From contig NZ_QUZK01000046.1 of assembly GCF_003410055.1 (NCBI RefSeq), forward strand, positions 1-64,000: a stretch of DNA of 64,000 nucleotides, read 5' to 3'. Positions within the stretch are counted from its first letter, which is position 1; the number at the start of each line of letters is the position of its first letter. This DNA comes from Wenzhouxiangella sediminis. Lineage in GTDB: Bacteria > Pseudomonadota > Gammaproteobacteria > Xanthomonadales > Wenzhouxiangellaceae. A program made the position numbers and the translations under genes. Below are positions 1 to 50,502 of the stretch, piece by piece. Under the pieces are notes generated by a model, which had not been told where the DNA came from, did not search any database, and worked only from the letters and a program-made list of their open reading frames with translations.

Positions 1-203
1 TTTCAGGTTTCAGGTTTCAGGTTTCAGGTTTCAGGTTTCAGGTTTCAGGTTTCAGGTTTCAGGCGGCGCTTCAGCGCGCTGCGGGCCGGCTTTGCCGGGG
101 TACGCTCGGTGGAGCTTCGGAGTGCACGGCGAACAGCTTGTCGGCAACGAGACACCGGCTTCGCCAGGCGCTCCTGAAACCTGAAACCTGAACCCTGAAA
201 CCT
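1..203. repeat. Composite intergenic repeat, locus A (TTTCAGG array)
   Basis: Bases 1-63 are nine perfect copies of the heptamer TTTCAGG, cut by the window edge. Bases 173-203 carry the same unit in inverted orientation (CCTGAAA, CCTGAAA, CCTGAAC, CCTGAAA, CCT). The 109 bp between hold a GC-rich foldable motif GCGGGCCGGCTTTGCCGGG (81-99) and a 49-bp cassette (124-172) that recurs at 39844-39892. The arms could pair into a long hairpin or cruciform. Nothing in it looks coding. Confidence 0.9.
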
Positions 204-8201: not shown

Positions 8202-8671
8202 TACTCTTCTCCTTGTCCGTCTTCGCTGTTGAACATGTAGCGGCTGATGAGTTGTTCGAGCACCATCGCTGAACTGGTGATCAGGATGCGGTCGCCGTCC
8301 TGAAGCACCTCCGGCGATCCGCCGGGTTCGAGCCCGACGTACTGATCCCCCAGGATGCCGCTGGTGAGAATCGACGCCGAGGTGTCGTCGGGCAGGTTGT
8401 CGTACGCGCGGCTGATGCGCATCGTCACCCTGGCCTCGAAGGTTTCCGGGTCGAGCTCGATGGCCTCGACCATGCCGATGGCCACACCGCCCATGCTGAC
8501 CGTCGCGCGCGGCGTCAATCCGCCGACGTTCGAAAAGCGGGCGGTGACTTCGTAGCTCTCCCCGGACACCACGCCCCGGTCGGTGGCGTGCAGGGCCAAA
8601 AAGACCAGCGCGGCGATGGCTAGCAGCAGGAAGATGCCCGCGGTCAGTTCGATCTGGTGAGAAGATTTCAT
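8201..8671 (-). CDS. mlaD: MCE-domain protein MlaD
   Basis: This 156-residue protein has one N-terminal membrane anchor (AGIFLLLAIAALVFLAL) and one MCE domain, with the characteristic YEVTARFSNVGGLTPRATV and GILGDQYVGLEPGG segments. MlaD forms the hexameric periplasmic ring on the MlaFE transporter through which lipids pass. Its length is normal for the family. It lies 14 bp after mlaE. Confidence 0.94.
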   Translation of the reverse strand: MKSSHQIELTAGIFLLLAIAALVFLALHATDRGVVSGESYEVTARFSNVGGLTPRATVSMGGVAIGMVEAIELDPETFEARVTMRISRAYDNLPDDTSASILTSGILGDQYVGLEPGGSPEVLQDGDRILITSSAMVLEQLISRYMFNSEDGQGEE

Positions 8672-10404: not shown

Positions 10405-11745
10405 CTACAGGATATAACGGCTCAGATCCTCGTTTCCTGCCAGGTCCTTGAGGGAACGATCGACGAAATCGGCGTCGACCACCACCTTTTCGCTCGAGCG
10501 ATCCGGCGCCGAGTACGAGACATCCTCGAGCAGCCGTTCCATGACGGTGTGCAGGCGGCGTGCCCCGATGTTCTCGGTCGACTCGTTGACCGAGAAGCTG
10601 ATCTCGGCCAGGCGCGTGATCGCCTCGTCGGTGAACTGGAGGTCGACGCCCTCGGTGGCGAGCAGCGCGGTGTATTGTTCGGTCAGGCAGGCGTCCGGTT
10701 CGGTCAGGATGCGCTTGAAGTCATCGACCGCCAGGGCACGCAATTCGACGCGGATGGGCAGGCGGCCCTGGAGTTCCGGCACCAGGTCGGAAGGCTTCGA
10801 AACATGGAAGGCGCCCGAGGCGATGAACAGCATGTGATCGGTGCTCACCGGTCCGTAGCGGGTATTGACCGTTGCGCCTTCGACGAGGGGCAGCAGGTCG
10901 CGCTGCACGCCCTCGCGCGAGACTTCTCCGGAGCCGCCCCCTTCGGCGCGACGAGCGACCTTGTCGATCTCGTCGATGAACACGATGCCGTGCTGCTCGG
11001 CCATGGTGAGTGCCTGCTGCTTGACCTCTTCGTCGTTGATCATGCGGGCGGCCTCTTCTTCCACCAGCAGCGGAATGGCGTCCTTGACCTTCATGCGGCG
11101 CTTCTGCTTGCGCTGGCCCGACATGTTGGAAAACATCTGCTGGAGCTGGTTGGTCATTTCCTCCATGCCCGGCGGCGCCATGATTTCGACGCCGAGATTC
11201 ATGTCGAGGTCGATCTCGATCTCGCGCTCGTTGAAGTCACCGTCGAGCAGCTTGCGCATCATCTTCCGGCGCGTCTCCGAAGAACCGTCGGCCGGCTCCT
11301 CCGGCGCGTTGGAGAATCCGGAACTCTGCTGGCGCGGCAGCATGATGTCGAGCACGCGCTCGACCGCGGCGTCCTCGGCGCGCGAGCGCACCTTCGCCAT
11401 GGCCTCGTCGCGCGCCAGCTTGTAGGCCACTTCGGTGAGGTCACGGACGATGGACTCGACGTCCTTGCCCACGTAGCCCACTTCGGTGAACTTGGTCGCT
11501 TCGACCTTGATGAACGGCGCCTTGGCCAGGGTAGCCAGGCGTCGCGCGATCTCCGTCTTGCCCACGCCGGTCGGACCGATCATCAGGATGTTCTTGGGCG
11601 TGATTTCCGGCTGCAGCTTCTCGTCCACCTGCATGCGGCGCCAGCGGTTTCTCAGGGCGATGGCCACGGCGCGCTTGGCCTCGGCCTGGCCGATGATGTG
11701 GCGGTCCAGTTCCTGGACGATTTCGCGGGGAGTCATCTGCGTCAT
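10405..11745 (-). CDS. hslU: ATP-dependent protease ATPase subunit HslU
   Basis: This 446-residue AAA+ unfoldase carries Walker [16 protein letters not shown] near residue 55, Walker [10 protein letters not shown] near residue 255 and the C-terminal LSRYIL that docks into HslV. The inserted I-domain lies in the middle (residues about 110-240). HslU unfolds substrates and feeds them to the HslV peptidase. It follows hslV by three bases, the classic operon order. Expression is probably heat-inducible through the promoter upstream of hslV. Confidence 0.97.
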
Positions 11746-12373: not shown

Positions 12374-12562
12374 TCAGGTTTCAGGTTTCAGGTTTCAGGT
12401 TTCAGGTTTCAGGGAAACCTGGGGTTCGGGGTTCCGGGTTCGGGGTTCCGGAAAACAAGTGGGTGGGCCATCGGGGGATCGGGGCCGGCTGCGCCGGGCT
12501 GGCTTTCCTGAAACCTGAACCCTGAAAACTGAAACCTTTCTTTTCCCGAACCCCGAACCCGA
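12374..12562. repeat. Composite intergenic repeat, locus B (TTTCAGG array)
   Basis: Five TTTCAGG units (12379-12413, with a partial unit from 12374) face inverted units at 12507-12537. Nested with them is a second family: a GGGTTCGGGGTTCC-type array at 12421-12453 and its inverted counterpart at 12546-12562. A foldable GGGGCCGGCTGCGCCGGG lies at 12481-12498. The element fills the gap between the xerC 3' end and the hslVU promoter; its first heptamer begins about 8 bp from the -35 box. Confidence 0.9.
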
Positions 12563-14162: not shown

Positions 14163-15001
14163 CGGATGACTCCTTCAAACACGAGGCGGGCGGGCCCGGT
14201 GGTGGTCAGCACCTGACCCCTTCCCGGCCAATTTACCACAAGCGTTCCACCCGGCTGAATGACTTCCACGGGCGCTTCGACGCGGCCCAGCCGCAGCAGG
14301 ATAGCGGCCGCGGCGCTCGCCCCGCTGCCGCAGGCCAGCGTAGGGCCGGCGCCGCGCTCGAACACGCGCAGGCGAACGCGATGCGGCGACTCGACGACTG
14401 CCAGTCCCACGTTGGCGCCGTGCGCCAGATCGGCGTGCCCGCCGAGCGTTCTGCCGACGATGTCGAGACGCCGTGGCCCGGGTTCCTCGTCCTCGATCAC
14501 CAGGAGGTGGGGATTGCCCATGGACGCGCCGTGGACATCCAGTTCTTCGCCGTCGACGGTGAAGCGGCGCGGAAAGGTCGGTGTGTCGGCGAGCCCAACG
14601 GCGCGCGGATCGAAGTCCGGCACCCCCAGCGTCGCGCTGATTTCGTCGTCGGAGCGATAGCGGGTCTCGACGCTGCCGCCGGCAGTCTCCAGGTGAAGCT
14701 CGTGGCGTGCTCCCTCGTGGCGCGACAGCCAGAGCGCCACGGCCCGCATGCCGTTGCCGCACTGCTCGGCCCGGCTGCCGTCGGCGTTGTGGATTTCGAC
14801 GCGGCAGTGATGTCCCGGCCGGTCGCTCGGGCGCAGCACCAGCAGTTGATCGAAGCCCACGCCGCGGCGCCGGTCGGCCCACTGCCTGACTTGTCCAGGC
14901 CCGGGCTCGAAGTCGCGCTGCCGGGCGTCGACGAGCATGAAGTCGTTGCCCAGGGCCTCGAGCTTGAAGAACGCCAGCGCGTCGTTGCGTTCCTCGGGCA
15001 T
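14141..15001 (-). CDS. dapF: Diaminopimelate epimerase DapF
   Basis: This 286-residue enzyme interconverts LL- and meso-diaminopimelate for lysine and peptidoglycan synthesis. Both catalytic cysteines are visible: AEQCGNGMRAV near residue 81 and TLACGSGASAAAA near residue 220. The N-terminal FFKLEALGNDFMLVDAR is typical. It begins just after the small lipoprotein gene lptM, the usual neighbour, and its end overlaps the DUF484 gene. Confidence 0.96.
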   Translation of the reverse strand: MPEERNDALAFFKLEALGNDFMLVDARQRDFEPGPGQVRQWADRRRGVGFDQLLVLRPSDRPGHHCRVEIHNADGSRAEQCGNGMRAVALWLSRHEGARHELHLETAGGSVETRYRSDDEISATLGVPDFDPRAVGLADTPTFPRRFTVDGEELDVHGASMGNPHLLVIEDEEPGPRRLDIVGRTLGGHADLAHGANVGLAVVESPHRVRLRVFERGAGPTLACGSGASAAAAILLRLGRVEAPVEVIQPGGTLVVNWPGRGQVLTTTGPARLVFEGVIRCRTQAG

Positions 15002-21069: not shown

Positions 21070-21381
21070 GCTCCTTCGTTCACTCGTTCCGGCGCGGAAG
21101 TTAATGCGGGCCGGCTGCGCCGGGAGGGACTGGTAGCGCAGAAGTTCTCTGGAATGGCCTCACGCAGAGGCGCAAAGGCGCAAGGGTCGCAGAGGAAAAG
21201 AAAGGACTTGTAAGAGAGGTCGAGCGCAACGCATCGTCTTCTGTTCTGATTTGTCGAGACCCGCACTGAGACCGGTCGCGCCAATCTCGCGCACGCCCCC
21301 GACGCGAGCGGCGCCGGAACCAAAAAACCAAAAAACCAAAGAACCAAAGAACCAAAGAACGAATGAACGAATGAACGATCG
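21070..21381. repeat. Composite intergenic repeat, locus E (octamer arrays)
   Basis: Eight octamers of the type AACCAAAA, AACCAAAG and AACGAATG fill 21318-21381, preceded by GGCGCCGG. Inverted copies occur at 21070-21097 (CTTCGTTCACTCGTTCC then GGCGCGG). Between them are the foldable GCGGGCCGGCTGCGCCGGG (21106-21124), also found in loci A and B, and a GCAGAGGCGCAAAGGCGC-type array (about 21163-21195). No gene is visible in this gap. Confidence 0.85.
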
Positions 21382-29210: not shown

Positions 29211-29218
29211 CGATAAAG

Positions 29219-29297
29219 GGTTCGGGTTTCAGGTTTCAGGTTTCAGGACGAGCGGGGCTCGGGTTTCCTGAAACCTGAACACTGAACCCTGAAACCT
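29219..29297. repeat. Composite intergenic repeat, locus C (minimal TTTCAGG element)
   Basis: Three TTTCAGG units (29227-29247) and four inverted units (CCTGAAA, CCTGAAC, ACTGAAC, CCTGAAA, then CCT; 29267-29297) flank only 19 bp of spacer. This is the smallest version of the element. It ends directly at the GGAG ribosome site (29298-29301) of nadE, so any hairpin would sit against that gene's translation start. Confidence 0.9.
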
Positions 29298-39685: not shown

Positions 39686-39689
39686 AGGG

Positions 39690-39923
39690 GTTCAGGGTTC
39701 AGTGTTCAGGTTTCAGGAAAATCAGCGTGGGGCTTCCGTCGCAGGTGGCGGGCGCTTCCGGTCGTGGGGGCGTGGATAGGTCTTTTGGGGTTCCGGGTTC
39801 GGGGTTCCGGAACGGCCCCGGTTTATTGCAGAGTCATCCGCTCGCACGGCGAACGGGTTGTCGGCACCGCACCATCGGCTTCGCCAAGCGCTCCTGAAAC
39901 CTGAACACTGAAACCTGAAACCT
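39690..39923. repeat. Composite intergenic repeat, locus D (TTTCAGG array)
   Basis: Four diverged heptamers (GTTCAGG, GTTCAGT, GTTCAGG, TTTCAGG; 39690-39717) face inverted units at 39893-39923. The interior holds a 26-bp block identical to one in locus B (39787-39812 and 12428-12453) and a 49-bp cassette at 39844-39892 similar to 124-172 in locus A. It fills the gap between the convergent aceK and purT genes. Confidence 0.9.
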
Positions 39924-50373: not shown

Positions 50374-50502
50374 TTTCGTTCGTTCGCTGCTTCGTTCATT
50401 CGTTCATTCGTTCTTTGGTTCTTTCGTTCCGGCGCGTCTAGCGTTGGGGGCACGGGGTCGGTTGGTGCTGTCGGGTGTCTTGGGGGTCCCGCGGCACCAA
50501 CC
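50374..50502. repeat. Composite intergenic repeat, locus F (octamer array and hairpin)
   Basis: Bases 50374-50430 are an array of TTCGTTCA/TTCTTTGG-type octamers, the inverse of the AACGAATG/AACCAAAG units of locus E, ended like those by CCGGCGCG (50429-50436). A GGTTGGTGC/GCACCAACC inverted repeat (50460-50468 and 50494-50502) follows and could act as a bidirectional terminator between two convergent genes. The remainder up to 50532 has no coding signal. Confidence 0.8.

Follow-up and report, generated by a model that had tools for sequence, protein, structure and literature searches.

The window analysed here comprises 64,000 nucleotides (G000:C33:1-64000) of the Wenzhouxiangella sediminis genome (3.5 Mb, 54 contigs, 99.79% complete) and holds four sites with one layout, in which a TTTCAGG array is followed by a loop and then by an inverted CCTGAAA array (Table 1). 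An earlier sequence-only reading had described these sites as sharing a single design, with an internal cassette of 19 to 175 bp and at least 9, 5, 3 and 4 forward units, and these points were confirmed. TRF detected both arrays at each site, the loops between detected arrays measured 109, 93, 19 and 175 bp at sites 1 to 4, and the forward arms contained nine, five and three exact units at sites 1, 2 and 3 and four drifted units at site 4. As site 1 starts where the contig starts, the assembly truncates its array, and nine units are a minimum. At all four sites the G-rich arm came first. Allowing up to two mismatches, TTTCAGGTTTCAGG matched 29 times in the window, compared to a mean of 0.17 and a maximum of 2 in 100 shuffles, and the excess of TTTCAGG doublets over shuffles was approximately 170-fold. 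Predicted RNA folds of the sites, relative to those of shuffles, gave z scores of -8.0 (site 1), -6.6 (site 2, minus strand), -7.3 (site 3) and -7.2 (site 4).

Table 1. Coordinates of the array elements in the window.
Feature	Position	Strand	Basis
Site 1, left (G-rich) arm, nine exact TTTCAGG, truncated by contig end	1..63	+	sequence, TRF
Site 1, loop, 109 bp	64..172	.	loop comparison
Site 1, right (C-rich) arm, CCTGAAA units	173..203	-	sequence, TRF
Site 2, left arm, TTTCAGG x5.7	12374..12413	+	sequence, TRF
Site 2, loop, second heptamer family GGGTTC[C/G]	12421..12451	+	sequence, TRF, inverted-pair comparison
Site 2, right arm, CCTGAAA units, drifted	12507..12537	-	sequence, TRF
Site 2, inverted partner of GGGTTC array, beyond TTTCAGG right arm	12538..12561	-	inverted-pair comparison
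Fifth element, same design, 8-bp units (TTCGTTC. / GAACCAAA)	21071..21376	.	TRF; left end counted by eye
Site 3, left arm	29217..29247	+	sequence, TRF
Site 3, right arm, 19-bp loop	29267..29298	-	sequence, TRF
Site 4, left arm, four drifted units	39688..39717	+	sequence, TRF
Site 4, loop, GGGTTC[C/G] array	39787..39810	+	read from sequence
Site 4, right arm	39893..39923	-	sequence, TRF

Gene names beside the sites were assigned from Pfam domains plus context. The sites had been thought to lie at operon boundaries throughout, which was not confirmed: site 2 lies between the co-directional genes xerC and hslV and site 3 between sucD and nadE, also co-directional, while site 4 separates the convergent genes aceK and purT and site 1 is at the contig end. 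The right end of the site 1 loop is shared with site 4 (84% over 49 bp). At site 2 the GGGTTC[C/G] arms are interleaved with the TTTCAGG arms, not nested within them. The fifth element has a loop of approximately 220 bp, and its orthologous place is occupied by 8-mers in the congener G009 and by GTGTGAA 7-mers in G010. An 8-bp TTCGTTCA array was also seen at 50375-50429, with no clear inverted partner within the 186 bp read around it. Searches against Rfam at gathering scores gave no match in the window, nor in 13 of the IVP gene loci described below.

Abundance, arm order and placement of the arrays

Searched with a 14-mer at up to one mismatch, the whole genome contained 632 matches (292 + 340), and the reversed-pattern control none. 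We examined arm order in a sample of 21 stretches totalling 437 kb (the window plus 20 selected for holding arrays), in which 170 matches formed 39 clusters; extrapolated from the match count, the genome may hold approximately 145 clusters. Both arms were present in 20 of the 39, always G-rich then C-rich (19 '+-', 1 '++-', 0 '-+'), and the other 19 had one arm by the same test (16 '-' only, 3 '+' only). According to our home-made gene caller, on which placement relies, 3 clusters lay within genes and 6 at stretch ends; the others were intergenic, with co-directional neighbours in 18 cases, convergent in 8 and divergent in 4. With a coding fraction of 0.899 in the sample, clusters were over-represented between genes. 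Thus the statement that no array lies inside a gene was correct for the four sites but not for 3 of the 39 sampled clusters. The suggestion that the arrays mark transcription boundaries is not supported by position, as 18 of the 30 intergenic clusters with both neighbours called were between co-directional genes.

Two of the arrays inside called genes, both CCTGAAA (L149, 9580-9607 and 11663-11690), have similar surroundings; by eye, the second runs in frame into a dehydrogenase-like start, possibly as a linker. At L166 (approximately 2024-2400) the inverted repeat extends past the TTTCAGG arms, and the flanks match in inverted orientation (86% over 71 bp). A single array at L131 (7844-8000) grades from CCTGAAA through CCGGAAA to ACTGAAA, like a frozen picture of unit replacement.

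Counts of TTTCAGG ranged from 0 to 632 among the 30 genomes of the genus (own included), G009 and G016 being the next richest (75% and 85% complete), and from 0 to 8 in genomes of the order outside the family. The paired design also occurs in unrelated phyla. Exact (TTTCAGG)3 was found at at least 117 loci, and among the matches listed the record titles named Flavobacterium, Acidobacteria, Desulfobacterales, Leptolyngbya, Planctomycetota, Kiritimatiellae, Aliivibrio, Wenzhouxiangella and others. Neighbouring arrays no more than 250 bp apart at the 117 listed loci were ordered '+-' in 35 cases, '++' in 11 and '--' in 2, and never '-+'; between 250 and 700 bp there were two '-+' pairs (L047, which encloses an IVP gene, and L086). 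Another word, GGGACCA, gave 102 triplet matches in G012, 41 in G001 and none in 22 of the 30 genomes of the genus, indicating that this word expanded in two genomes, just as TTTCAGG did in others; the reversed-pattern control is uninformative for this word, its reverse being the same repeat in another phase.

A 23S_rRNA_IVP gene between inverted arms

A gene for a 23S_rRNA_IVP (PF05635) protein lies elsewhere in the genome (G000:C19:5866-6174) between AGGTTTCAGGTTTCAGGGTTCAGGTTTCAGG and its inverse, that is, between TTTCAGG arms. Its product scored 116 bits against PF05635 (cut-off 33.8) and its nearest solved relative is XCC0516 (2GSC); the family occurs in many phyla, and its solved structures are 2GSC and 2RLD. 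The genome has two IVP genes, the second of which (on contig C22) has no good arms (score 17). Searching 43 genomes of the order for PF05635 gave 35 places in 20 genomes; 30 of these were given loci, 4 of the 30 giving no motif and being tested by coordinates, and the place between sucD and nadE in G018 was read separately. Genomes reached through (TTTCAGG)3 contributed 30 loci and 33 further testable places. In total, 125 IVP genes were collected, of which 119 were distinct and 116 testable (at least 200 bp on both sides), three being dropped for a short flank.

Arms were scored as the best inverted match between the 260 bp before and the 260 bp after the IVP domain, a local-alignment score that is blunt: the arms between sucD and nadE in G018 and G029 receive 16 although their repeats are visible. 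Arms scored at least 26 at 100 and at least 30 at 91 of the 116 genes, a set that includes vertically inherited Flavobacterium copies and in which many members are related and not independent events; the remaining 16 had no arms of 26 or more. Among the 100 armed genes the best period was 7 in 72 and 8 in 19, compared to a spread over 4-12 for shuffled arms, and the left arm was richer in G than in C in 89, equal in 5 and reversed in 6. The word itself varies among copies. Elements of this class end in a pair of inverted arrays, each built of a short tandem unit (usually of 7 bp and often of 8 bp), with the G-rich arm usually first on either strand.

Arms were far rarer in the controls. Scores of at least 30 were obtained at 46 of 57 IVP loci in the first set, compared to 2 of 300 mismatched flanks and 2 of 109 windows shifted by 700 bp. 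In a second set, drawn from 200 evenly sampled Pseudomonadota, the same threshold was reached at 16 of 27 IVP loci and in none of 52 shifted windows, as well as in 11 of 300 mismatched flanks, probably because several members have one word in common. Ordinary genes of the genome reached 30 in 4 of 350 cases and 26 in 13 of 350; of those with intergenic room on both sides, 1 of 73 reached 30. Conversely, PF05635 was present in 38 of the 39 genomes reached through 40 chosen loci of the 117 listed for (TTTCAGG)3 (two of them congeners already covered), relative to a base rate of 37 in 200 Pseudomonadota, a comparison that is indicative only as this rate comes from one phylum. Within the genus, the median number of TTTCAGG matches was 44 in 13 genomes with IVP and 11 in 14 without (Mann-Whitney P = 0.002), to which we give little weight because completeness also differed (96 with, 88.5 without).

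The IVP gene is under purifying selection (dN/dS 0.03-0.11 in 12 orthologous pairs), and by crude ORF calls it is co-oriented with the genes on either side in 35 of 47 distinct AT-rich loci. GGGAATC arms flank one IVP gene (L225), which belongs to a genome of the same order. Among 55 paired TTTCAGG loops, which do not include the C19 copy, there was one intact IVP gene, one probable remnant and one doubtful remnant. IVP was not found in the array-bearing genomes G017 (99% complete, 25 matches) and G122 (Leptolyngbya), nor in several less complete ones. A locus from a rumen Bacteroidetes genome (L268, G108:C7:5000-18500) carries seven IVP genes within 11 kb, each with its own arms (scores 31 to 51) in several words.

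Occupancy and turnover at orthologous junctions

G009 also has the site 4 element, with flanks 87 and 94% identical and nearly the same loop. The place of site 2 is occupied by a short loopless palindrome in G009 and by other inverted repeats in G016, G010, G024, G029 and G027; no inverted array was seen by eye in G017 and G026, and only one flank was found in G008. The C19 IVP element was absent, by eye, at a recognisable junction in 6 of 8 congeners compared; G027 had a small gene-less array there, and the G014 junction was cut by a contig end. Three further elements, at L160, behaved similarly when compared by eye. The one at 14982 is cleanly missing from G024, and in G010 another palindrome takes its place; at the position of the one at 8221, both G010 and G016 have other repeats. 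The element at 11202 has 5 and 4 units in the two arms in G000 compared to 4 and 5 in G009; its place is empty in G010, holds TTTCAGG with another loop in G016, and has a one-armed TGGTCCC array in G024. Thus empty-site orthologues, which the sequence-only reading had proposed to look for, do exist at some congener junctions, but others hold other words or the gene-bearing form.

The junction between sucD and nadE (site 3) was compared over 20 species, a set that leaves out G009, whose contig ends there. Most species have an inverted pair of short repeats at this place, and the word is not constant: it is TTTCAGG in several, ACGGTTT in two, GGGACCA in one and GTTGCAA/GTTGTCA in G018 and G029. 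In the latter two the loop is approximately 480 bp with a small gene, which in G018 is PF05635; the G029 loop is nearly the same. Arm complementarity had a median of 29 within species and 14 across species, and a score of at least 22 was reached in 12 of 20 within-species comparisons (leaving 8 species below 22) relative to 90 of 380 across. In the 12 species without TTTCAGG the medians were 18 within and 12 across (P = 0.0003).

In Flavobacterium, many elements keep their junction over up to four species, and at two junctions the whole unit, arms plus gene, differs in one species, which shows that the host does not supply the arms as a fixed site. At the few junctions examined by eye we identified no target-site duplication, and a search for Y1_Tnp revealed no mobilising enzyme in this genome. 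Between copies, the loops mostly have short modules in common and are mostly unrelated over their full length, which disfavours each element being a clean transposon copy. The constant terminal inverted repeats expected of a MITE of a DNA transposon were not seen, unit sequence and number varying among copies and species.

Comparison with known systems

The sequence-only reading had found no resemblance to any repeat family, yet inverted heptamer pairs have already been published for Xanthomonas. Rehm et al. 2015 (PMC4692102) describe mostly intergenic GGGAATC heptamers of variable unit number, with inverted pairs in convergent order in 70 cases in Xcc and 75 in Xac. These are the closest published kind, and the arrays reported here similarly consist of at least two tandem 7-bp units, form convergent pairs and are over-represented between genes. 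The Xanthomonas repeats differ in their word and in their G-quadruplex theme, which requires four runs of at least three G where the TTTCAGG unit has GG only, and the accessible part of that report draws no link to a gene or to mobility. MacGregor 2015 (PMC4679880) describes TAACTGA repeats in Beggiatoaceae, Cyanobacteria and Bacteroidetes, with the mechanism left unexplained and transfer suspected. Like TTTCAGG, these are intergenic heptamer arrays in distant phyla; unlike the TTTCAGG pairs, they are, in the part of the account available, nearly all direct, with one inverted case in the genome studied.

The 23S intervening sequence (IVS) of Coxiella (PMC4990558) has an S23/IVP ORF in the loop of a stem-forming inverted repeat and has been termed a selfish element; it lies in helix 45 of the 23S rRNA and has a 28-bp stem for which RNase III cutting was shown. 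Such elements have long been suspected of mobility (PMC4990558), and CPR bacteria likewise have IVP ORFs within their 16S and 23S insertions. The gene within an inverted-repeat loop is what we observed in the C19 element; the four loops in the window (19-175 bp) are too short for it, but their arms are the same as those of C19 and their complementary ends could form stems. The location differs, the flanking genes in the window being protein-coding, with no Rfam match. Tandem units are not mentioned in the accessible account of the Coxiella stem. PF05635 resembles Avd of diversity-generating retroelements in sequence and structure, and Avd works with a reverse transcriptase (PMC10053308).

Our open-access literature searches found no report joining IVP or four-helix genes to inverted heptamer arrays, and searches for the array strings returned nothing relevant; within the literature searched, this link is new. 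Among other repeats, cyanobacterial STRRs are heptamer arrays and neisserial NIME/dRS3 are inverted repeats flanking variable intergenic cassettes. We know of no TTTCAGG arms or IVP gene in either.

Proposed origin and spread of the elements

The best overall explanation, and in our judgement a reasonably probable one, is that a widespread IVS-like hairpin element is represented at the four sites by copies lacking its gene; the full form would carry a single loop gene, for a 23S_rRNA_IVP (PF05635) four-helix-bundle protein like those encoded by 23S IVS. The narrower statement that the sites belong to the same class as the gene-bearing elements is well supported. Both build on the arms and their pairing potential, the gene-bearing copy on C19, the association of gene and arms across phyla, and presence, absence and turnover at orthologous junctions. 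Overall, of the three guesses made in the sequence-only reading (mobile repeat, transcription boundary, slippage product), a non-autonomous mobile repeat is the best supported, as congener junctions differ in occupancy and one gene-bearing copy has the same arms.

Such an element would be transcribed together with the surrounding genes, and its stem would be cut or tolerated, as RNase III treats 23S IVS stems, so that insertion between genes would do little harm. This RNA-level processing is suggested by analogy, and we lean somewhat against it. Unit number would be altered by slippage, and complementarity could be maintained by copying one arm from the other through fold-back template switching; that these two processes shape the arms is close to an even call, falling slightly short of it. 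Copies would reach new junctions, possibly with help in trans from the IVP protein, which is related to Avd. We doubt that the protein is needed for spread, since array-bearing genomes without IVP (G017, G122) and the single intact gene among 55 loops count against a strict need; arrays also outnumber the gene in this genome (632 matches to 2 genes). As such IVP-less arrays occur and a RAYT is absent, we group the four sites with the heptamer repeat pairs, and the wider class would be the new part.

A more tentative reading, which we consider less likely than not, is an unnamed class of mobile element, found across phyla, whose ends have a fixed form (an arbitrary 7-8-bp word, inverted, G-rich first) that is re-made in each lineage, and whose sole gene encodes the 23S-IVS/Avd-like protein. 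The 23S IVS, the Xanthomonas heptamers and the TTTCAGG arrays would then be three faces of one element, and the arms might be made or copied by the protein, working on a hairpin of RNA or of single-stranded DNA. The ends of this class would be defined by architecture instead of sequence. PF05635 proteins, which are called uncharacterised in the published descriptions available despite their many phyla and solved structures, and bacterial heptamer repeats, which have repeatedly been noticed without a cause, both gain a testable role from their link. Heptamer-armed hairpins and IVP genes would point to one widespread, little-described kind of selfish element, and offer a natural system in which a palindrome retains pairing while its sequence is replaced.

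Alternative explanations

The strongest alternative, although an unlikely one, is that these are ordinary slippage-born heptamer repeats to which fold-back adds an inverted arm in place, so that nothing moves and IVP elements insert into existing hairpins. Slippage was proposed for bacterial heptamer repeats, whose excess is recognised, in PMC4679880 and PMC4692102, and also in the sequence-only reading. It is consistent with the difference in unit number between G000 and G009 at one junction, the three unit words of the L131 array, the mostly unrelated loops and the arrays lacking IVP genes. Unit number clearly changes, but slippage alone leaves the paired complementary arms unexplained. It is also insufficient, acting in place, for a word that is abundant in one genome and missing from most of the genus (GGGACCA in G012; TTTCAGG from 0 to 632). 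Two further points count against it: the G-rich arm nearly always precedes the C-rich one, and arms and gene differ jointly at the two Flavobacterium junctions.

A second alternative, which we regard as improbable, is that the sites are host regulatory hairpins (an mRNA stabiliser, processing site or terminator) under selection, their heptamer make-up being secondary. The paired structure between sucD and nadE does persist in most of the 20 species despite sequence turnover, in Xanthomonas 83% of the heptamer repeats have the same gene context in two species (PMC4692102), and 8 of the 30 placed intergenic clusters are convergent, compared to 25 of 207 sampled gaps of at least 30 bp (not all 8 are necessarily among the 25). 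However, the same junctions are empty or have unrelated arrays in congeners, arrays also occur within called genes, and copy number varies from 0 to 632 in the genus.

REP/BIME-like repeats are known in xanthomonads and their relatives, and the elements described here are similarly intergenic, palindromic and of high copy number. Spread by a RAYT (Y1) transposase is nevertheless very improbable: Y1_Tnp, present in 9 of 30 genomes of the genus, was not found in the genome of the window, nor in G009 and G016, incomplete as these two are, so that the linked RAYT envisaged in the sequence-only reading is not supported. An assembly artefact, which might be suspected because array makes up exactly the first 63 bp of at least two contigs (C11 and C33) and C15 also begins in one, is a negligible prospect, given that many genomes from other phyla, sequenced independently, show the same design and that the single-contig congeners G018, G026 and G027 have arrays. 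These contig starts do indicate that assembly breaks inside arrays, so array lengths at contig ends are untrustworthy, and the elements may explain contig breaks at some such places.

Other inverted arms at IVP genes

Two kinds of arm other than those above were also seen. At L216 an IVP gene is flanked by 103-nt inverted arms in which CTGGGGAACG alternates with small hairpins, and which are not heptamer arrays. A further inverted family, whose words resemble CAAATCCGAAAC / AATTTTCAAACAAG, occurs at L189, L190, L226, L235 and L350, where it lies at junctions and flanks divergent IVP-like genes.
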